Assembly: GCA_900065925.1 (NCBI GenBank)
Contig: LN890280.1
Location: forward strand, 1,356,451 to 1,420,450
Direction: 5' to 3'
Source of the DNA: Nitrosotalea devaniterrae
GTDB lineage: Archaea > Thermoproteota > Nitrososphaeria > Nitrososphaerales > Nitrosopumilaceae
Length of the DNA: 64,000 nt
The position numbers and the translations under genes were made by a program. This document shows, piece after piece, positions 45,665-59,631 of this stretch (positions within the stretch are counted from its first letter, which is position 1; each line of letters starts with the position of its first letter). Under the pieces are notes generated by a model. It was not told the DNA's origin. It ran no database searches and worked only from the letters and a program-made list of their open reading frames with translations.

Positions 45665-46855
45665 ATGATGAAAGGAAAAGCAGTTCTAGCTTTCTCTGGG
45701 GGACTTGATACTTCGGTTGTAATAAAATATCTACAAGACAAACATAAGCTTGATGTCATTACAGTTACAGTAGATGTAGGCCAAGAAGACAACCTCAAAA
45801 AGATTTCAACCAAGGCAAAGAGTCTTGGAGTTTTAAAGCATTACAACATTGATGCACGACAGGAGTTTGTAGATAGTTTCATCTTTCCAGCAATTAGGGC
45901 AAATGCATTATACCAAAAGAAATATTGCCTTGCAACAGCACTTGCACGACCACTGATTGCACAAAAAGTGGTAGAGGTTGCGAAAAAAGAAAACGCGTCA
46001 GCACTTGCACACGGATGTACAGGAAAAGGAAACGATCAAGTGAGATTTGATGTTACATATCGTTCAGGTTCTAATCTTCCAATCATTGCACCAATACGTG
46101 ATCTCAATCTTACACGGGATGTTGAATTAAAATATGCACAAAAACACAATATTCCAATTGATAATACTGCAAAAAAATTCAGTATTGATCAAAACTTGTG
46201 GGGAAGAGCAATTGAAGGTGGAGACATGGAAGATGCATTCTCAGAGCCGCCAGATGATGCATTCATTTGGGTCAAGACAAAAAACTTGCCAGAAAAACCA
46301 CAATACATTGAAATAAAATTTGAAAACGGTATACCCGTTGCAGTAGATGGAAAACGCATGAGGTCAATTGAGCTAATCAAGTACATTAACAAAAAGGCAG
46401 GTGCAAGCGGAGTTGGAATTGTGGATCACATTGAAGACAGAGTTGTAGGCATAAAATCACGAGAAGTCTATGAGACACCAGGTGCAACATGCATAATTGA
46501 AGCACACACTGATCTTGAAAAAATGGTTTTGACAAAACACGAATTAAAGTTCAAGGCAACGGTTGATGCAGAGTGGTCATGGCTTGCATATTCTGGACTG
46601 TGGCAAGATCCACTGAGATCAGATTTAGATATGTTTATCAATACTACTCAGAAGAGGGTTAGCGGAACTGTCAAGCTCAAAATGTTCAAAGGAAGTCTCA
46701 GAGTTGTTGGAAGAAAATCGGAATATTCATTGTACAGCCATGATCTGGCAACATATGGCGCCGGTTCTACTTTTGATCAGACTCTTGGAAAAGGATTCGT
46801 TGAGCTATGGGGGCTTCAATCAACAGAAGCTAATAAATTACTAAAAAAGAGGTGA
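45665..46855 (+). CDS. argG: Argininosuccinate synthase
   Basis: 396 aa. It joins citrulline and aspartate with ATP, the penultimate step of arginine synthesis. The PP-loop ATP motif is LAFSGGLDTSVVIKYL. Typical segments are ALAHGCTGKGNDQVRFDVTY and PIRDLNLTRDVELKYAQKHN. Length is normal. A second ATG one codon in is equally possible. It is the first gene of the arginine/lysine cluster, and its last bases GAGGTGA double as the ribosome-binding site for lysW. Confidence 0.96.
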   Translation: MMKGKAVLAFSGGLDTSVVIKYLQDKHKLDVITVTVDVGQEDNLKKISTKAKSLGVLKHYNIDARQEFVDSFIFPAIRANALYQKKYCLATALARPLIAQKVVEVAKKENASALAHGCTGKGNDQVRFDVTYRSGSNLPIIAPIRDLNLTRDVELKYAQKHNIPIDNTAKKFSIDQNLWGRAIEGGDMEDAFSEPPDDAFIWVKTKNLPEKPQYIEIKFENGIPVAVDGKRMRSIELIKYINKKAGASGVGIVDHIEDRVVGIKSREVYETPGATCIIEAHTDLEKMVLTKHELKFKATVDAEWSWLAYSGLWQDPLRSDLDMFINTTQKRVSGTVKLKMFKGSLRVVGRKSEYSLYSHDLATYGAGSTFDQTLGKGFVELWGLQSTEANKLLKKR

Positions 46856-46866
46856 ATGATCAAAGA

Positions 46867-47034
46867 ATGAATTGCCCAGAATGTGATGCAACAATAAAAA
46901 TTCCAGACGACGCAAGTGTTGGAGAGATAGTCTCATGTCCTGATTGTGGGGCAGATTTTGAGATTGCTTCTAAGAATGGCGCCGCATGTGAATTAAAGCA
47001 TGCTGAGAAAGTTGGCGAAGATTGGGGAGAGTAA
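46867..47034 (+). CDS. lysW: Amino-group carrier protein LysW, first copy
   Basis: 55 aa from ATG 46867; a GTG at 46852 would add five residues, but GAGGTGA at 46849-46855 is a good ribosome-binding site for the ATG, and the length then equals that of the second copy. A zinc-ribbon (CPECDATI, SCPDCGADFEI) supports an acidic body. The C-terminus is VGEDWGE: the gamma-carboxyl of the last Glu is the attachment point for glutamate or alpha-aminoadipate in LysW pathways. The position between argG and the ArgX-like ligase suggests a role in arginine synthesis. Confidence 0.93.
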   Translation: MNCPECDATIKIPDDASVGEIVSCPDCGADFEIASKNGAACELKHAEKVGEDWGE

Positions 47035-47892
47035 ATGCCCAAAGTTCGAATCGTGTTCGATAGAGTAAGACTGGAAGAAAAGATGCTCGAACAAAAAGCA
47101 ATCGAGCTTGGACACGATACGAAAATGATCGATGCCAAAACTACCCAATTTACCACTGAAAGTAAAAAAAACGATTACGATTTCGGAGATGTCGTTTTAG
47201 AAAGATGTGTCAGTTACTTTCGTGGTCTTCATTTTACAGCAGCCCTTGAATTTTTAGATATTCCAGTAATCAACAGAACTGAAGTTGCAAACAATTGTGG
47301 AAACAAGATGTTAACCTCATTATTGCTAAAAAAACATAATGTACCTACTCCAAAAACATACTTTACATTTTCATCAGAGGCAGCAGTTGAGACACTGGAA
47401 AAAGATGGTTATCCACTAGTGATAAAGCCAATCATAGGAAGTTGGGGGAGAGGCGTTGTACCTCTAAGAGACAGGGAAACAGCAGATGCAATAATTGAAG
47501 TCAGAGAGCTAAATGACGGACCATTGGACAGGATTTACTACTTGCAAGAAGTCGTCACACGTCCACCAAGAGACATACGAGCCATATCCGTGGGAGATCA
47601 GTTGATCGCTGCAATGTATAGAACATCTACTGGCGGCTTTAAGACAAATATTGCTCTAGGAGCAGAGCCAATCGCATGTGAGATCACAAAGGAGTTGGAA
47701 GACATTTGCATGAAGGCATCAAAGGCAGTAGGAGGCGGAATCTTGGGAATTGATGTCATGGAAGACGAAAAACGCGGATTTGTGGTACATGAAGTAAACA
47801 ATACAGTAGAATTCAAGGGATTAGCAAAAGTTGCCAAAAGAGACATCCCAAAAGAAATGATCGACTATGCAATAAGTTATGCCAAGCGATAG
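47035..47892 (+). CDS. argX: LysW-glutamate ligase, ArgX-like (ATP-grasp)
   Basis: 285 aa; its ATG directly follows the lysW stop. It is an RimK/LysX-type ATP-grasp ligase that couples an amino acid to the C-terminal Glu of LysW. Motifs: YPLVIKPIIGSWGRGVVPLR (ATP), VVTRPPRDIRAISVGDQLIA and GFVVHEVNNTVEFKGLAKVA. The last region differs from the paralog at 52868 (NNTTEYKNTVRVTG), whose form resembles LysX; this copy resembles ArgX. Together with argG next door this favours glutamate as substrate. Assignment of the substrate is inference. Confidence 0.88.
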   Translation: MPKVRIVFDRVRLEEKMLEQKAIELGHDTKMIDAKTTQFTTESKKNDYDFGDVVLERCVSYFRGLHFTAALEFLDIPVINRTEVANNCGNKMLTSLLLKKHNVPTPKTYFTFSSEAAVETLEKDGYPLVIKPIIGSWGRGVVPLRDRETADAIIEVRELNDGPLDRIYYLQEVVTRPPRDIRAISVGDQLIAAMYRTSTGGFKTNIALGAEPIACEITKELEDICMKASKAVGGGILGIDVMEDEKRGFVVHEVNNTVEFKGLAKVAKRDIPKEMIDYAISYAKR

Positions 47893-47955: not shown

Positions 47956-49008
47956 ATGAAAGTCGGTGTAGTCGGAGCATCAGGGTATGTCGGTGGAGAA
48001 ATTCTTAGATTACTTGTAAGTCACCCACATGCAGAAATTTCCATGGTAACTTCAAGACAATATGTTGGAGAATACATCTCTAGAATACAGCCAAGCTTGA
48101 AAGGATTTACAGATATGACATTTTCAGAACTTGATTACGATAAACTAACAGACAAGTGCGATTTGGTATTTACAGCAGTACCACATGGAACCGCAGTAGA
48201 CATTGTAAAGGCGCTCTATGATAGAGGAATGAAAGTAATTGATCTTAGTGCAGACTATAGATTACACAATCCAGCAGATTATGACAAATGGTATGGTTGG
48301 CAACATCCACATCCAGAGCTACTAGAAAAATCAGTCTTTGGAGTTCCAGAACTCCACAGAGAAGAGATAAAAAAATCTCAAATTGTATCATGTCCTGGAT
48401 GCATGGCAGTAACATCAATTCTAGGATTATACCCATTGATCAAAAAGAAAATTATCGATACAGAACATATCATAGTTGATTCAAAGATTGGCTCTTCAGG
48501 TGCAGGTGCAGGAACTGTTTCAGGTACACACCATGCAATGAGATCAGGTGTCATCAGACCATACAAGCCAGCAAAGCACAGACATACTGGAGAAATAGAA
48601 CAAGAACTAAGCATTGCAAACGGTGGAAAAATCAAGGTATCAATGAGTCCACACGCAGTAGACATTGTAAGAGGAATTCTTTGTACAAATCATGTCTTTC
48701 TTAATCAACCAGTAAGTGAGATGGATTTGTGGAAGATATATCGTGAACAATACCAAAATGAAAAATTCATCAGACTTATTCGTGACAAGAAAGGATTTTA
48801 CAAATTCCCAGATCCAAAGTTTGTGGTAGGCTCTAACTTTTGTGATGTAGGATTTGACATTGATGAAGACAATAACAGAATTGTAGTTCTCTCAGCATCA
48901 GACAACCTCATGAAAGGCGCAGCAGGATCTGCCATTCAAAACATGAATGTCATGGCAGGATTCAATGAGATGGAAGGAATAGCATATTCTCCGTTAACTC
49001 CTGTGTAA
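47956..49008 (+). CDS. lysY: LysW-bound gamma-glutamyl/aminoadipyl-phosphate reductase
   Basis: 350 aa, ArgC/LysY family. It reduces the LysW-linked acyl phosphate to the semialdehyde with NADPH. The NADP-binding start is VGVVGASGYVGGEILRLL and the catalytic Cys149 lies in SCPGCMAVTSILG. As only one copy is present for two carrier/ligase pairs, it is likely bifunctional for arginine and lysine synthesis, as in Sulfolobus. A purine-rich AGGAGAG eight bases upstream is a probable ribosome-binding site. Confidence 0.92.
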   Translation: MKVGVVGASGYVGGEILRLLVSHPHAEISMVTSRQYVGEYISRIQPSLKGFTDMTFSELDYDKLTDKCDLVFTAVPHGTAVDIVKALYDRGMKVIDLSADYRLHNPADYDKWYGWQHPHPELLEKSVFGVPELHREEIKKSQIVSCPGCMAVTSILGLYPLIKKKIIDTEHIIVDSKIGSSGAGAGTVSGTHHAMRSGVIRPYKPAKHRHTGEIEQELSIANGGKIKVSMSPHAVDIVRGILCTNHVFLNQPVSEMDLWKIYREQYQNEKFIRLIRDKKGFYKFPDPKFVVGSNFCDVGFDIDEDNNRIVVLSASDNLMKGAAGSAIQNMNVMAGFNEMEGIAYSPLTPV

Positions 49009-49012
49009 AAAA

Positions 49013-49813
49013 ATGATTACAATAAAAATAGGAGGAAGTGTGGTAGATGGTCTTCATCCCACTACAATATCAGATTTAAAAAAAGTCTCAGAAAATGAAA
49101 AACTCATCATAGTACACGGCGGAGGAAAAGAAGTAACAAAAATTTCAGAGGCCTTGGGAAAGGAACAAAAATTCATCGTCTCCCCAGGAGGAATCAAGAG
49201 TAGATTTACAGACAAGGAGACTGCAGAGATATTTACAATGGTCATGTCTGGAAAAATAAACAAGATGATAGTTGGCATGCTCCAAAAGCATGGAATCAAT
49301 GCAGTTGGCCTTTCAGGGGTGGATGGCAAGATAATACAGGCTGAACGAAAAAAGAAACTAATCGTAATGAACGAAAAAGGTCGTAAGATGGTAATCGATG
49401 GAGGCTATACAGGAAAAATACAAGATGTCAATGCAGGACTGATTCACTCCATTTTAGACCAAGGATATGTTCCAGTCATATCTCCAATTGCAATAAGCGA
49501 AGAATGTGATTTTCTCAACGTTGACGGGGACAGGGCTGCAGCATACGTTGCAGGCAAGATGAAGTCTGACAAGATATTATTCCTGACAAATGTAGATGGT
49601 TTACTCATGGAAGAAAAACTAGTAAAAAAATTATCCTTGGCAGAAGCAAAGGAAATTTTACCAAAGATTGGATTTGGGATGGAAAAGAAGATACTTGCGG
49701 CAACAGAAGCCTTGGAGATGGGAGTCAAGGAAGCATTGGTTGCAAATGGCAAAAAGGAAAACCCAATATCTGCGGCAATTGCTCACGATAACTGTACGGT
49801 GATATCAAAATGA
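49013..49813 (+). CDS. lysZ: LysW-bound glutamate/aminoadipate kinase
   Basis: 266 aa, ArgB/LysZ amino-acid kinase family. It phosphorylates the side-chain carboxylate of the LysW-linked amino acid. Motifs: ITIKIGGSVVDG (phosphate loop), IVHGGGKEVTKISEALG and VDGDRAAAYVAGKM. It begins four bases after lysY and overlaps lysJ by four bases (ATGA type), so translation is coupled. The single copy implies action in both pathways. Confidence 0.93.
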   Translation: MITIKIGGSVVDGLHPTTISDLKKVSENEKLIIVHGGGKEVTKISEALGKEQKFIVSPGGIKSRFTDKETAEIFTMVMSGKINKMIVGMLQKHGINAVGLSGVDGKIIQAERKKKLIVMNEKGRKMVIDGGYTGKIQDVNAGLIHSILDQGYVPVISPIAISEECDFLNVDGDRAAAYVAGKMKSDKILFLTNVDGLLMEEKLVKKLSLAEAKEILPKIGFGMEKKILAATEALEMGVKEALVANGKKENPISAAIAHDNCTVISK

Positions 49814-50985
49814 CAGAAGACCAATTCATGGGAAATATCTACCAGAGATTTCCAGTAACAATAGAACGTGGACTTGGAGCCCGTGTATGGGATACAAGTG
49901 GAAAAGAGTACATCGACTGCATGGGAGGATATGGAGTGGCGCTAGTAGGTCACTGCAATCCTCGAGTAGTAAAAGAGATCAAGTCACAGCTTGACAAGAT
50001 CATTACAGTACATAGTTCATTATACAACAAAACAAGAGAAGAATTCCTTGAAAAATTAATCAAGATTTCACCAAAGAGTCTCAGCCAGGTATACTTAAAC
50101 AACAGTGGAACAGAAGCAGTAGAAGCTGCAATCAAATTTGCACGCAAATTTACAGGAAAGAAAAAAATGGTTGCAATGAATGGTTCATACCATGGAAAAT
50201 CACTTGGTGCACTATCAGTCACATTCAATCAAAAATATCGCAAGGCATTTGAGCCTCTTGTTGATACTGTGAGCTTTTCATCATTTGGAGATATTGAAGC
50301 ATTACGAAATGCAGTAGATTCTGACACTGCAATGATAATAATGGAACCAATTCAGGGAGAAAGTGGAATCAATGTTGCACCAGACGGATTTTTACAACAA
50401 GTCAGAAAGTTATGCGATGAGAAGGGAATCGTTCTAGTGTTCGATGAGATTCAGGCAGGTCTTGGAAGAACAGGAAAAATGTGGGCAAGTCAACATTGGG
50501 ATACAGTACCGGACATCATGTGTCTTGCAAAAGGTATTGCAGGCGGCGTACCAATGGGTGCTACACTAGTAAGGCCAGACATATTGGCGTCAATTAACAA
50601 AGGAGAACAATCATCAACATTTGGAGGTAATCCATTATCATGTGCAGCAGGGATTGGAGCAATTGATGCACTAGTAGAAGACAAGTTAGTTGAGAATGCA
50701 GAGAAAAATGGAAAACTATTCAGAGACGGATTAGAGAGATTAAAAGAAAAGCACAAGATAATTCGAGAAGTAAGAGGCAAGGGACTCATGATTGGAGTAG
50801 AGATGAAGTTTGAAGTAAAAGACATATTGTTTGATGGAATTGCAAATAACCTATTGTTGCTTTATTCTGGCAAGAATATACTGCGATTGTTACCCCCCCT
50901 AGTAATATCAGAGACGGACATAAACAAAGCTTTAGAAACTCTAGATGTGATAATAACAAAAGAGGAACAGAGAAGAAATGTCTAG
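49810..50985 (+). CDS. lysJ: LysW-bound semialdehyde aminotransferase
   Basis: 391 aa, class III PLP aminotransferase (ArgD/LysJ). It transfers an amino group from glutamate to the LysW-linked semialdehyde. Motifs: NNSGTEAVEAAIKFARKFTG, VLVFDEIQAGLGRTGKMW (Asp for the PLP nitrogen), LAKGIAGGVPMGA with the PLP lysine at about Lys241, and STFGGNPLSCAAG. It overlaps the preceding kinase gene and the following Lrp gene. Confidence 0.94.
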   Translation: MTEDQFMGNIYQRFPVTIERGLGARVWDTSGKEYIDCMGGYGVALVGHCNPRVVKEIKSQLDKIITVHSSLYNKTREEFLEKLIKISPKSLSQVYLNNSGTEAVEAAIKFARKFTGKKKMVAMNGSYHGKSLGALSVTFNQKYRKAFEPLVDTVSFSSFGDIEALRNAVDSDTAMIIMEPIQGESGINVAPDGFLQQVRKLCDEKGIVLVFDEIQAGLGRTGKMWASQHWDTVPDIMCLAKGIAGGVPMGATLVRPDILASINKGEQSSTFGGNPLSCAAGIGAIDALVEDKLVENAEKNGKLFRDGLERLKEKHKIIREVRGKGLMIGVEMKFEVKDILFDGIANNLLLLYSGKNILRLLPPLVISETDINKALETLDVIITKEEQRRNV

Positions 50986-51397
50986 AGACAAGACAGATGA
51001 GACAATAATTGAAATGCTTAAAAAAGATTCAAGGCAATCTTTTGTAGAAATTGGCGAAAAATTAGGATTATCAGAATCTGCAGTAAGACGAAGAGTAAAA
51101 AATCTTACAGATGGTGGCACAATAAAGAAATTTACAATTGAAACAGGTGATGCAAATTCTACCAGTGCAATAATTTTGATCTCAGTTGACTCATCAACTG
51201 ATACATCAAAGGTATCTGCAAGACTTTCTAAACTGCGTGGAGTACATACAGTATTTGAGATAACAGGTCAGTATGATATTGCAACAATAATCAAAGCACC
51301 AACAATTACTGACATCAATGTGTGCATAGATGAATTGAGAAAAGTTTCAGGCGTATTTGACACAAATACTGTCATAATATTGCGTACAGTCACATAA
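50978..51397 (+). CDS. Lrp/AsnC-family regulator, probably LysM-like
   Basis: 139 aa. The N-terminal helix-turn-helix reads QSFVEIGEKLGLSESAVRRR. The C-terminal RAM ligand domain has SARLSKLRGVHTVFEITGQY and the expected DIATIIKAP strand. It overlaps lysJ by eight bases and lies immediately before the homocitrate synthase promoter. In Sulfolobus, LysM of the same family controls the lysine genes in response to lysine; by context this protein likely has the same role at the inverted repeats at 51433-51489. Confidence 0.92.
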   Translation: MSRDKTDETIIEMLKKDSRQSFVEIGEKLGLSESAVRRRVKNLTDGGTIKKFTIETGDANSTSAIILISVDSSTDTSKVSARLSKLRGVHTVFEITGQYDIATIIKAPTITDINVCIDELRKVSGVFDTNTVIILRTVT

Positions 51398-51514: not shown

Positions 51515-52705
51515 ATGGACGATGCAAACTATTACGCATATCAATATAACGAGATGGGCGTCAAGCCAAAGAAAATCAAAATACTTGACAGTACACTTAG
51601 GGAAGGAGAGCAACATCCAGGTGTTACTTTTTCAAACAAACAGAGAATCCAGATTGCATGGATGCTGGATTATTTTGGAGTTGATCAAATTGAGATATCC
51701 CCTGTTGTATCCCCTGATCATAAGGAAGCAACAAAAACTATCATCAAACAAGGATTAAAAGCAGATATTGTAGCACATGTTCGCGCATTAAAAGAAGATG
51801 TGGATGTTGCAATTGATTGTGATGCAACATGGATGGCAACTTATCTTGGAATTTCTGAAATTCACATGAAGGACAAGTTAAGAATTACAAGAGAAGAAGC
51901 ATTACGAAGATCAGTTGAAACAGTAGAATATGCAAAAGCACATGGACTGAAGATGAGATTTACAGTGGAGGATGGTAGTAGAGCAGATCCAGAATTTCTC
52001 ATGCAGGTATGCAAGGCAATCTCTGATGCAGGTGTTGACAGGATTAGCTTACCAGATACTGTTGGAATAATGAGACCAAACGGAATGTATAATTTTGTAA
52101 AATCAATTCGAGAAGAGATAAAAACTCCACTTGATGTGCACTGCCACAACGATATTGGACTTGCCCTTGCAAATGCATTAGCAGGATGTGACGGCGGCGC
52201 AGATCAAATTCACACTACAATTGATGGAATAGGTGAAAGAACTGGAATACCAGCACTTGCAGAAACAGCAGTTGCTCTAACATACCTATACAAGTCACCA
52301 AATAATTTCAGACTAGACATGCTCATGGACCTATCAAGGCTAATTGAGCAATATACAACAATTGTGCCCTATGACTCAAAGCCAATTGTAGGACCTACGG
52401 CTTACAAGCACAAAGCTGGAACGCACTTGGCAGCAATTTTAAGAAACCCAGCAGCATACGAGCCAATTGAACCAAAGATAGTAGGAAATAGAAGAAGAAT
52501 CGTATTTGGAGAACTTGCTGGAAAGAACGGTGCGGCATATTTGATGTCTTTGCTAGGCCTCGAACAAAACGAAGAACATGCAAAGTCAGTGGCAGCTGGA
52601 CTGAAGAATCTAAGAATGGGAGATTTGCTTGAGATACCACTTGATGATAGACTTGAACGAAAGATAATTAATGACACCGAAGTGAAGGTAAAAGCAGGAA
52701 AATAA
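51515..52705 (+). CDS. Homocitrate synthase
   Basis: 396 aa, alpha-isopropylmalate/homocitrate synthase family. It condenses 2-oxoglutarate and acetyl-CoA, the entry to the aminoadipate route to lysine. Motifs: LDSTLREGEQHPGVTFSNKQ and the metal-site VHCHNDIGLALANALAG. No C-terminal LeuA regulatory domain is present, in line with homocitrate synthases. It leads the half-cluster with lysW2, the LysX-like ligase and lysK. 2-Isopropylmalate or citramalate synthase are the alternatives, but the context strongly favours homocitrate. Confidence 0.9.
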   Translation: MDDANYYAYQYNEMGVKPKKIKILDSTLREGEQHPGVTFSNKQRIQIAWMLDYFGVDQIEISPVVSPDHKEATKTIIKQGLKADIVAHVRALKEDVDVAIDCDATWMATYLGISEIHMKDKLRITREEALRRSVETVEYAKAHGLKMRFTVEDGSRADPEFLMQVCKAISDAGVDRISLPDTVGIMRPNGMYNFVKSIREEIKTPLDVHCHNDIGLALANALAGCDGGADQIHTTIDGIGERTGIPALAETAVALTYLYKSPNNFRLDMLMDLSRLIEQYTTIVPYDSKPIVGPTAYKHKAGTHLAAILRNPAAYEPIEPKIVGNRRRIVFGELAGKNGAAYLMSLLGLEQNEEHAKSVAAGLKNLRMGDLLEIPLDDRLERKIINDTEVKVKAGK

Positions 52706-52706
52706 T

Positions 52707-52871
52707 ATGAAATGCTTAGAATGTGATGCAAACATCAACCCTCCAAAGGACTCGATGGAAGGAGAGATAGTAACCTGTCCTGATTGCGGCGCAAGTTTTG
52801 AACTTGTTAAAGGATCCTCCGGCTTTGAGTTAAAACCAGCACAATCTGTTGGTGAGGACTGGGGCCAGTGA
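52707..52871 (+). CDS. lysW: Amino-group carrier protein LysW, second copy, ending in Gln
   Basis: 54 aa, ATG at 52707, TGA at 52869-52871. It matches the first copy throughout: KCLECDANI, EIVTCPDCGASFEL and the acidic end SVGEDWGQ. The terminal residue is Gln (CAG), where the canonical LysW has Glu as acceptor. The codon just precedes TGA, and the GTG start of the LysX-like ligase overlaps it (GTGA). A single G-to-C change from GAG would give it, so either a sequence error, a processed C-terminus or a changed chemistry must be considered. It should carry alpha-aminoadipate. Confidence 0.92.
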   Translation: MKCLECDANINPPKDSMEGEIVTCPDCGASFELVKGSSGFELKPAQSVGEDWGQ

Positions 52872-53716
52872 GCTCCGGTTTATCGATTCTCTACGATACC
52901 ATCAGGTGGGAAGAAAAAGCACTCTTTGATGCAGCAAAGGAAAAAGGCATCGATGCAAAGATGGTTGACTGTAAGAATCTGTCCATTAATCTAGATAAAA
53001 GCAAAGAAGAGTATGGAACTGTAATACAAAGATGTGTCAGTTATTATCGTAGCCTTCACTCTACTGCAGCACTGGAAGGAAAAGGAGTTAACATAATCAA
53101 TTCACTGAATACTAGCATTTTTGCCGGAAACAAATTATTTACTCACATGCTTTTGCTAAAAAAAGGAATACCCACACCATTTAGTGCAGTCGCATTTTCA
53201 CAAGAATCAGCACTTGATCTTCTTGACAAAAAAGGATACCCAATGGTGATAAAACCAACTGTTGGTAGTTGGGGAAGGATGATTGCAATGCTAAAAGACA
53301 AGGAATCTGCAGAGGCAATAATTGAAAGCAGAGAAAGCATGTATCCAATTTATCAAGTGTATTATCTAGAAGAATTTGTCAATAGACCACCACGTGATAT
53401 CAGGGCAATCGTAATAGGAGACAGAGTTGTTGCTGCAATTTACCGCTATTCTGGAGAAGACCAGTGGAAAACAAACATGGCACTTGGAGGTAGAGCAGAG
53501 GAACTCAAAGTCACAAAAGAATTAGAAGATATTTGCATCAAGGCAACAGAAGCAGTTCAGGGACAGATAGTCGGAGTTGATCTAATGGAAAGTAAAGAAA
53601 ACGGACTTGTTGTTCATGAAGTTAACAATACAACGGAATACAAAAATACTGTCAGAGTTACTGGCGTAAATATACCAGCAATGATGATCGATTACGCAAT
53701 GAGCCAAGGAAAATAA
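52868..53716 (+). CDS. lysX: LysW-aminoadipate ligase, LysX-like (ATP-grasp)
   Basis: 282 aa, GTG start overlapping the lysW2 stop. It is an ATP-grasp ligase paralogous to that at 47035: YPMVIKPTVGSWGRMIAMLK, FVNRPPRDIRAIVIGDRVVA and VVHEVNNTTEYKNTVRVTGV. The last motif resembles LysX (N-x-T-x-E-F-K-N, then TGV). Linkage to homocitrate synthase and lysW2 supports alpha-aminoadipate as substrate. The enzyme normally forms an isopeptide-type bond with the gamma-carboxyl of a C-terminal Glu; its own partner here ends in Gln. Confidence 0.88.
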   Translation: MSSGLSILYDTIRWEEKALFDAAKEKGIDAKMVDCKNLSINLDKSKEEYGTVIQRCVSYYRSLHSTAALEGKGVNIINSLNTSIFAGNKLFTHMLLLKKGIPTPFSAVAFSQESALDLLDKKGYPMVIKPTVGSWGRMIAMLKDKESAEAIIESRESMYPIYQVYYLEEFVNRPPRDIRAIVIGDRVVAAIYRYSGEDQWKTNMALGGRAEELKVTKELEDICIKATEAVQGQIVGVDLMESKENGLVVHEVNNTTEYKNTVRVTGVNIPAMMIDYAMSQGK

Positions 53717-53719
53717 GAA

Positions 53720-54862
53720 TTGGATTCGTCAGTAACTAGTACACCGAGGTATTCAGTAAAAGTTCTAGAGAAGGCTCTAAGGCTCTATACACCATCACTC
53801 TCAGAAAAGCCGCTTGCAGAGTTTTTGGCAGACAAGTGTGATGATTTTGGATTTGAAGACATTCGCATAGACGATGTAGGGAACCTTATCGCTACAAAAG
53901 GATCTGGATATCCAAGAATAATGCTATGTGGACACATGGATACAGTTCCAGGAAAGATAAAGGTGAGAAATGAAGATGGGTTCATTTATGGTCGAGGTGC
54001 ATCAGATGCCAAGGCACCCTTGATCTCAATGCTTCTTGCAGCAGCATCAGTCCAAGGCAACAACAATGGAACAATAACGTTTGCAGCAGTAGTAGATGAA
54101 GAAGGAAATGCAACAGGAATAAAGAGCCTTGTGAAACAAAAGCCTGAGATAGATTATGCAATATTTGGCGAGCCAAGCGGAATTAAAAATATCACAATTG
54201 CATACAAGGGAAGAATTGCAATAAACTTGAGAGTGAATGTAGGTGATAGTGCACATGCAAGTGCACCATGGCTTGCAAAAAATGCAATTGAGGAATCATA
54301 TGTATTTACAAGCGCGCTAAAAAAATCCCTAGAACAAAATCAAGAAGGTCTTGCAAAAAGCATGATGCTTACATCATCTTTAACTGAAATCAAGGGAGGC
54401 ACAAGCCATAATGTGACACCACTAGAATGTGATGCCATAATGGACATAAGAATTCCAGTAAATATGAACTGCAAAATTGTTGGAGAGAGAATTGCAACAA
54501 CAGTACAAGACATTGCAAAAAAACAAGGAGTAAATGCATTTTATTCAGTCATAGACGAGACTGAACCATTTGAGGCACCACATAGCTCTCCACTTGTTAG
54601 AGCACTAACACTTGGAATAATGGATGTAGAAAAGGCAAGACCGCAGCTAATTCGAAAGACAGGTACAGGAGATATGAACATAATAGGAAATTCACTAAAC
54701 ATTCCAGTCGTTACCTACGGTCCAGGAGATCCTCATGCATCACATACAATTGATGAAAGAGTGTCAACAGATGAGTTTCTAAGAAGCATTGAAGTTTTCA
54801 AGAGGATGTTATCTCATCTCAGAAGGTTACACGAATTCAAAAATCCTCCCGCCAAATCCTAA
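53720..54862 (+). CDS. lysK: LysW-lysine/ornithine hydrolase
   Basis: 380 aa, TTG start three bases after the ligase stop. It belongs to the M20 metallopeptidase family (ArgE/LysK) and releases lysine or ornithine from LysW. Motifs: IMLCGHMDTVPGKIKVRNED (first metal His and Asp), GRGASDAKAPLISMLLAAAS and FAAVVDEEGNATGIKSLV (catalytic Glu pair). The later segment THNV-type region reads GGTSHNVTPLECDAIMDIRI. A single copy probably serves both carriers. Confidence 0.9.
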   Translation: MDSSVTSTPRYSVKVLEKALRLYTPSLSEKPLAEFLADKCDDFGFEDIRIDDVGNLIATKGSGYPRIMLCGHMDTVPGKIKVRNEDGFIYGRGASDAKAPLISMLLAAASVQGNNNGTITFAAVVDEEGNATGIKSLVKQKPEIDYAIFGEPSGIKNITIAYKGRIAINLRVNVGDSAHASAPWLAKNAIEESYVFTSALKKSLEQNQEGLAKSMMLTSSLTEIKGGTSHNVTPLECDAIMDIRIPVNMNCKIVGERIATTVQDIAKKQGVNAFYSVIDETEPFEAPHSSPLVRALTLGIMDVEKARPQLIRKTGTGDMNIIGNSLNIPVVTYGPGDPHASHTIDERVSTDEFLRSIEVFKRMLSHLRRLHEFKNPPAKS

Positions 54863-58941: not shown

Positions 58942-59631
58942 ATGATAGAATTTTTAGTTATTCAGAACACAAGAATAGAAGGAATTGGCACGTTAGGAGA
59001 GTTACTCAAAGCAGATGGATTTAACACAAAGACAATTCTTGCAAAAAATGAAAAAATTCCACAGACAAAGTATGACGCAATAATAATTCTTGGTGCGCCA
59101 GAGAGTGCAAATGATGATCTGCCATATTTGAAACAAGAGATATTGTTGATTCAGGACTCTGTAAAAAAAGAGATTCCAGTTTTAGGAATATGTCTTGGGT
59201 CACAGCTAATTGCCAAAGCATTTGGCGCTAGAGTGTACAAAGGGCCCAAAAAAGAGATCGGATTCTATGATGATGTTGAATTTGACAACGTGTCCCAGTC
59301 TAATCTCTTCAGGGGAATAAAGAGCCCATCTCTTGTTTTTCATTGGCATGGCGATACTTTTGATCTGCCAAAAAATGCAATAAGACTTGCACATTCAAGA
59401 GAGTATCAAAATCAGGCAATAAAGATAGGCAGTGCAGTAGGAATACAATTCCATCTTGAGATAGATGCACCAACCATAAAACTATGGTTAGAAAAATCAA
59501 GTGAGGAACTCAGTGATGTTCCATACATCAATCCAGATGTAATTGAAAAACAAATACCACAAAAAATTGATACTATTAGAAACAATCTTGAGATATTTTA
59601 TAAGAATTTCAAGTCAGAGTTTAATCTTTGA
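58942..59631 (+). CDS. Class I glutamine amidotransferase-like protein
   Basis: 229 aa. The GATase1 fold has VLGICLGSQLIAKAFGARVY with Cys84, and GIQFHLEID with His171 and Glu173; FHWHGDTFDLPKNAIRLAHS is typical. The catalytic triad is intact. It resembles the GMP synthase-like amidotransferase (yfeJ) group more than GuaA itself, because no synthetase domain is present. Its partner or acceptor is unknown. The ATG begins on the base after the divergent Toprim gene's GTG. Confidence 0.88.
   Translation: MIEFLVIQNTRIEGIGTLGELLKADGFNTKTILAKNEKIPQTKYDAIIILGAPESANDDLPYLKQEILLIQDSVKKEIPVLGICLGSQLIAKAFGARVYKGPKKEIGFYDDVEFDNVSQSNLFRGIKSPSLVFHWHGDTFDLPKNAIRLAHSREYQNQAIKIGSAVGIQFHLEIDAPTIKLWLEKSSEELSDVPYINPDVIEKQIPQKIDTIRNNLEIFYKNFKSEFNL

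Follow-up and report, generated by a model that had tools for sequence, protein, structure and literature searches.

A LysW carrier with an encoded C-terminal glutamine in the lysine branch of AOA, a candidate Pup-like pro-carrier

The lysW gene cluster

The window, i.e. the whole 64,000-nucleotide stretch of DNA that was analysed, derives from a genome (G000) that is a single contig of 1,805,304 bases, and one gene run in it carries two LysW carriers, LysW1 and LysW2 (Table 1). Around LysW2 the gene order is homocitrate synthase-like gene, lysW2, lysX and lysK, which relatives keep, and LysW1 is placed between argG and argX-lysY-lysZ-lysJ. The product of the window argG served as the ArgG reference in tblastn searches of relatives.

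Table 1 Features of the lysW cluster in the window (AAA, alpha-aminoadipate)
Feature	Coordinates	Strand	Basis or remark
argG: argininosuccinate synthase, upstream of lysW1	45665..46855	+	named from sequence and neighbourhood
lysW1: arginine-branch carrier, EDWGE end	46852..47034	+	translation, family profiles
argX: ATP-grasp ligase, Glu-type motif EFKGL	47035..47892	+	TIGR02144 298.2 bits
lysY/argC: carrier-bound phosphate reductase, common to both branches	47956..49008	+	TIGR01850 424.4 bits; single copy in the genome above the cut-off
lysZ: carrier-bound aminoadipate/glutamate kinase, common to both branches	49013..49813	+	NF010662 295.5 bits, cut-off 194; single copy in the genome above the cut-off
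lysJ/argD: aminotransferase	49810..50985	+	TIGR00707 427.8 bits, cut-off 410
homocitrate synthase-like HMGL protein, lysine branch entry	51515..52705	+	PF00682, PF22617
lysW2: lysine-branch amino-group carrier LysW, 54 aa, EDWGQ end	52707..52871	+	translation, PF21344, NF041070
CAG codon for the C-terminal Gln of lysW2	52866..52868	+	third base = first base of ligase GTG
lysX: ATP-grasp ligase, AAA-type motif EYKNT, lysine branch	52868..53716	+	TIGR02144 340 bits, cut-off 275.6; PDB 3vpd, 1uc8
lysK: M20-family hydrolase freeing Lys (or Orn) from carrier	53720..54862	+	TIGR01902 255.7 bits, cut-off 163.1

The homocitrate synthase-like protein scored 379.9 bits against TIGR02146, under the cut-off of 413.55, and its exact substrate is deduced from the gene context. 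LysK scored 253.6 against NF003367, the [LysW]-lysine hydrolase, under the cut-off of 363. The ligases SaLysX and SaArgX are set apart by an Asn-Thr/Gly-Phe pair (PMC10433800, in part). Judging by aligned PDB sequences, this pair appears to match the EYKNT/EFKGL site of the window ligases, and with the two sites equated the window LysX would be AAA-type and ArgX Glu-type.

The listed GTG start of lysW1 (46852) overlaps the argG stop, and the true start is likely the ATG at 46867, which fits the MNCPEC start of the relatives better. An Lrp/AsnC-type regulator at 50978-51397, between lysJ and the homocitrate synthase-like gene, is likely a local regulator of the lysW cluster. A class-I glutamine amidotransferase-like protein (PF00117; NF005458 166.7 bits, below the cut-off of 250) is encoded at 58942-59628, approximately 4 kb after lysK.

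The lysW2 gene translates to MKCLECDANINPPKDSMEGEIVTCPDCGASFELVKGSSGFELKPAQSVGEDWGQ. Translation and codon reading confirmed the earlier note in that LysW2 ends EDWGQ and LysW1 EDWGE: the CAG of lysW2 is followed by the stop TGA (52869-52871), and the last codons of lysW1 are GAG TAA. The GTG start of the ligase (52868-52870) indeed shares the final G of the CAG codon. LysW2 was recognised as LysW by Pfam PF21344 (45.9 bits, cut-off 27) and was matched up to its last residue by NCBIfam NF041070 (83.4, cut-off 75), and its best PDB chains, 3vpb_E and 3wwl_A, are both LysW with an EDWGE end. The lysW equivalog TIGR01206 missed LysW2 (29.5, cut-off 53.2), and it missed LysW1 too (45.2). The zinc-ribbon domain, the LysW-pathway neighbours (LysX, LysK and homocitrate synthase) and the EDWG tail that characterise the carrier family are all found with LysW2, and the zinc cysteines are retained; the C-terminal Glu acceptor is not encoded, the encoded residue being Gln (the mature residue is not readable from DNA). 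Descent and context place LysW2 among the LysW/ArgW carriers, though as a variant and not a standard member.

Glutamine and glutamate ends among relatives

Ends were read for 134 LysW carriers, from relatives among the matches listed and a few added genomes (G342 included). One expression used to select carriers takes [ED]W[GA] and one residue of any kind before the stop and misses longer or shorter tails. Every one of the 134 ended in Glu or Gln, and other residues were found in none of them. The EDWG tail was present in all carriers read, but this tail belonged to the expression or pattern that selected them. Among the matches listed, the lysine-branch carriers of ammonia-oxidising archaea (AOA) ended in Gln in 63 of 63 cases (f1 55/55 with the window copy included, f2 4/4 and f8 4/4); G342, added later because the Gln pattern is absent there, has Glu. 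Arginine-branch carriers among the matches listed had Glu in 27/27 cases with clear neighbours in f1 and in 4/4 in f2, and f8 had one Glu and one Gln; three f1 carriers without recognised neighbours were two Glu and one Gln. The non-AOA carriers among the matches listed, from 13 other families, had Glu in 34 of 34. In the ligase grouping, f2 falls with a Nitrosocaldus record, and f8 with records that bear the names Nitrososphaera, Nitrosocosmicus or Nitrososphaerales. In genus g1 mostly LysW2 alone was read, the LysW2 of G007 and G024 was cut by a contig end, and there was no match in G008, G076 and G086. The earlier note had offered a rare natural variant as one explanation, and had allowed that the orthologues might all end in Glu. 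Rarity proved wrong, as nearly all AOA lysine carriers have the Gln end and it recurs elsewhere, and the orthologues share it, so that the window copy is not isolated.

The Gln codon is CAG or CAA, including where it does not overlap the ligase start. The idea that the overlapping ligase start constrains the nucleotides of this codon was considered and rejected: several f2 and f8 genomes have a TAA or TAG stop without overlap and keep Gln, and f3 and G342 have GAG with the same TGA stop.

The Gln-end pattern was found in 87 of the 398 genomes of the phylum, the reversed-pattern control giving three matches in all. These comprise 72 of the 73 genomes of f1, f2 and f8, G342 being the miss, and 15 genomes elsewhere. 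For 13 of the 15 non-AOA genomes the match was confirmed as LysW (families f25, f30, f48 and f51), that of G128 was a chance match, and for G144 the assignment relies on where PF21344 matched. Scanning of named genome contigs gave at least 120 matches, of which at least 105 were LysW (at least 103 directly, and at least two, L218 and L225, that look like LysW cut by a contig end) and at least 15 chance matches; all LysW among the matches listed were archaeal, and Jordarchaeia and Undinarchaeales were represented. Jordarchaeia are an Asgard group. In the phylum of the Jordarchaeia genome (119 genomes) Gln-ended LysW was found in six (G469, G470, G493, G508, G579 and G585), a count that leaves aside the chance match of G565 and the CAATAG match of G488. 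Glu-ended relatives are common in this phylum, and one of them, in G522, is a close sister of the Jordarchaeia carrier. Gln ends recur in the arginine carriers of Nitrososphaeraceae and Cenarchaeum, in other Thermoproteota families, in two Asgard groups and in Undinarchaeota. L239, L197 and L047 (G050:C161), which are Cenarchaeum-named records or relatives, have a Gln-ended arginine-type carrier, whose neighbourhood in L047 and L197 contained no recognised reference gene. In G037 (2,045,086 bases) argX, lysW1 and lysY-lysZ are widely separated, at approximately 980 kb, 1,468 kb and 1,229 kb, respectively.

In 21 genomes every LysW over the PF21344 cut-off is Gln-ended. They have one carrier in G067, G098 and G423 and two in G081, G050 and G457, and further include eight genomes of f25, four of f30, G228 and two of Undinarchaeota type (G471 and G472); six are single contigs (G067, G098, G423, G457, G115 and G228). 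In G067 and G098, argX comes directly after argG with no lysW between, and the sole lysW, Gln-ended, is found next to lysX approximately 5 kb further along this cluster, with ArgX and LysX both full-length matches. One Gln carrier appears to stand for both ArgX and LysX in these two genomes, and from their gene content the Gln-only organisms would make both lysine and arginine. As far as genes can tell, the Gln end is no dead end.

Ligases and shared enzymes

The catalytic and GSWGR residues are at least 98 % invariant across 232 Gln- and Glu-paired ligases. In the numbering of the window LysX this core includes D10, R13, R55, S58, K129, GSWGR 133-137, R176, D177, R179, R193, N203, D238, E251, N253 and E257. 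Columns that strongly separate Gln- from Glu-paired ligases are e.g. 277, 233, 231 and 93 in the lysine branch and 14, 56 and 213 in the arginine branch. When columns were ranked for Gln versus Glu in each branch, with kinship uncontrolled, no column had the same change in both branches, and where a column ranked high in both, its residues differed from group to group.

In the first tree, of 232 ligases, there were eight switches between Glu and Gln compared to a shuffle mean of 62.6, with Gln over-represented outside AOA because the loci there had entered via the Gln pattern. In a tree of 150 ligases, thinned at 90 % identity and with 16 Asgard ligases added (11 Glu, 5 Gln), at least nine switches were found, compared to a minimum of 42 and a mean of 50.1 in 200 label shuffles; part of the Gln sampling bias remains in this tree, and several of its deep nodes are weak, with support down to 0.03. 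Ligases cut by a contig end or shorter than 255 aa were left out of the ligase count.

A tie between Gln and the lysine substrate was rejected, since Gln carriers pair with AAA-type (N-T/N-V) as well as Glu-type (G-A/G-M) ligases, the substrate motif being unscored ('none') in 4 of 14 arginine-branch ligases with Gln, 2 of 50 with Glu and 2 of 3 in the Asgard/DPANN group.

LysZ and LysY had one copy each over the cut-off in all 16 genomes tested, and LysK had one in 15 of the 16, G219 having two. The Jordarchaeia operon with the Gln carrier consists of lysWXYZJK only and contains no extra amidase gene; these genomes carry a second LysW, which is Glu-ended. Among the open reading frames listed around eight non-AOA Gln carriers some are unassigned, and an amidase may lie nearby or elsewhere in the genome. 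The class-I glutamine amidotransferase-like protein of the window (58942-59628) was also considered in this connection.

Loading of a Gln-ended carrier

To our knowledge, all characterised LysW/ArgW carriers are Glu-ended. The LysW/ArgW amino-group carriers (AmCP) of Thermus, Sulfolobus, Thermococcus and haloarchaea resemble LysW2 in their zinc-ribbon, EDWG tail, GSWGR ATP-grasp ligase and LysZ/LysY/LysJ/LysK, but they have a Glu end with the gamma-carboxyl as acceptor, whereas LysW2 encodes Gln. The gamma-carboxyl of the C-terminal Glu is the acceptor in the known LysW systems, and a Glu54Ala ArgW carrier results in arginine auxotrophy of Natrinema gari (PMC10433800, in part). The Pup system works in a way similar to LysW2: a small protein is linked via the gamma-carboxyl of its C-terminal Glu, the residue is Gln (PupQ) in some species, and Dop both deamidates PupQ and cleaves the isopeptide bond in depupylation (PMC8599861, in part). 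Pup differs in that it tags proteins and uses the glutamine-synthetase-like PafA/Dop; no sequence relation to LysW is claimed, and the lysW cluster showed no PafA/Dop-like gene. The alternation of encoded Gln and Glu at the acceptor position among relatives, typical of Pup, was found also for LysW, as seen from the switches in the ligase tree.

The Gln-ended LysW is most likely a Pup-like pro-carrier, in line with the deamidation before loading that the earlier note had listed among its options. With modest confidence, we consider it probable that LysW2 is a functional lysine-branch pro-carrier, its Gln being deamidated once to Glu before a normal gamma-linked cycle, with LysK as the probable deamidase. 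The side-chain amide of the C-terminal Gln would be hydrolysed, one time, to Glu, and LysX would join AAA to the Glu gamma-carboxyl with ATP; the carrier-bound AAA would then be processed by LysZ, LysY and LysJ, and LysK would free lysine, leaving a Glu-ended carrier for normal cycling. The Gln-only genomes, the invariant ligase core, the single LysZ and LysY and the restriction of the ends to Glu and Gln together favour conversion to Glu, and interchange of these two without other ends is what a Gln precursor of Glu would lead one to expect. The pro-carrier reading also draws on the conserved Gln of the AOA lysine carriers and on the minimal Jordarchaeia operon. The deamidation, its one-time nature and LysK as its agent are what we infer. 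LysK itself is probably the deamidase by chemical analogy, since release of lysine from LysW-gamma-Glu and release of ammonia from LysW-Gln cleave the same gamma-carbonyl C-N bond, and as LysK would leave Glu after one turn, slow deamidation could suffice. Its presence gives no specific support, since LysK serves Glu-ended carriers too; it presumably recognises the carboxylate of Lys or Orn, absent from ammonia, and we know of no deamidase activity for LysK or any LysW enzyme. Two observations count against a pro-carrier, namely that the Glu-ended LysW1 of many AOA might suffice for LysX as well as ArgX, and that Jordarchaeia have their second, Glu-ended LysW.

It is conceivable, though doubtful, that a Gln-ended LysW is loaded without a free Glu form, via the amide or the main-chain carboxyl, which would be a second carrier chemistry for lysine and arginine. 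In the first case LysX/ArgX would activate the Gln amide with ATP, or transamidate without it, and the amino acid would displace ammonia to form the gamma-isopeptide with no free Glu carrier. We know of no ATP-grasp enzyme that activates a Gln amide this way, and no ligase column tracks the Gln/Glu state across independent switches, and we regard this route as unlikely. The invariant ligase core, the same for Gln and Glu partners, would fit it nevertheless, as would the minimal operon without an extra gene, and attack of the Gln amide oxygen on ATP has been proposed for Dop (PMC8599861, in part). In the second case, which the earlier note had also listed, AAA would be placed on the main-chain carboxyl of the C-terminal Gln in a RimK-type or PEARL-like manner, the side chain being unused. 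LysX scored 298.6 bits (cut-off 143.4) against the RimK alpha-L-glutamate ligase subfamily, as did the Glu-paired ArgX (268.3). In the pearlin/PEARL system an amino acid is likewise built on the C terminus of an encoded carrier and finally cut off, and the carrier peptides are loaded at the C-terminal carboxylate; unlike in LysW systems, the linkage is to the main chain and aminoacyl-tRNA is used (PMC9303977, in part). Main-chain ligation is nevertheless quite improbable, because a single LysZ and LysY must handle both the Glu- and the Gln-ended carriers of AOA, and because an idle side chain should allow other residues, whereas the end toggles between Glu and Gln only. With LysZ and LysY single, and LysK single in 15 of the 16 genomes, both carriers probably present the same gamma-linked form. 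This shared-enzyme argument counts only against main-chain ligation; it fits direct use of the amide too, the product being the same.

LysW2 might also be no acceptor but an aid or regulator of LysX, with the Glu-ended LysW1 carrying both substrates in the way that the one Sulfolobus carrier serves both ligases (PMC10433800, in part). Most AOA do keep a standard carrier, 34 arginine-type or unplaced carriers being Glu-ended among the matches listed, but the Gln-only genomes belong to several lineages, and the maintained EDWG tail and zinc cysteines of LysW2 also make this role highly improbable. Practically no credence is left for a sequence error or neutral one-base drift from GAG to CAG. A single substitution separates the two codons, and G342 has a natural GAG copy; yet Gln is found in many independent assemblies, those of cultured strains included, it is encoded by both CAG and CAA, and no residue but Gln or Glu takes the position in the 134 carriers read. 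The one-base error that the earlier note had allowed for is thereby refuted.

Neither a report of a Gln-ended LysW nor the string 'EDWGQ' was found in the literature searched, which was mostly open-access, with the original LysW papers outside its scope. The Gln-ended LysW is a real, conserved and recurrent variant of the LysW carrier, undescribed in that literature. AOA rank with the most abundant archaea of soils and the sea. The metabolic model of N. maritimus draws the lysine pathway according to the Sulfolobus scheme, and the parts consulted of the SCM1 model paper name only one LysW, Nmar_1287 (PMC6038301). The Glu acceptor of the Sulfolobus scheme is not encoded by the lysine-branch gene of AOA; the AOA lysine pathway as drawn either lacks a maturation step or has the carrier loaded by a different chemistry. 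In its alternation of Glu and Gln the carrier resembles Pup, which belongs to an independent system that shares the gamma-glutamyl linkage. For the pro-carrier this parallel predicts a single deamidation, perhaps carried out by the hydrolase that unloads it.

The lysine-branch carrier of G342 (L330, G342:C47), which ends with GAG TGA, is the sole Glu-ended AOA lysine-branch LysW among those read. It is a natural switch from Gln to Glu, usable as a natural experiment, and comes from the same genus group as G189, in which the lysine carrier is Gln-ended and the arginine carrier Glu-ended. Compared to the nearest Gln ligases, the G342 ligase differs in 11 listed columns, all of them outside the invariant core.
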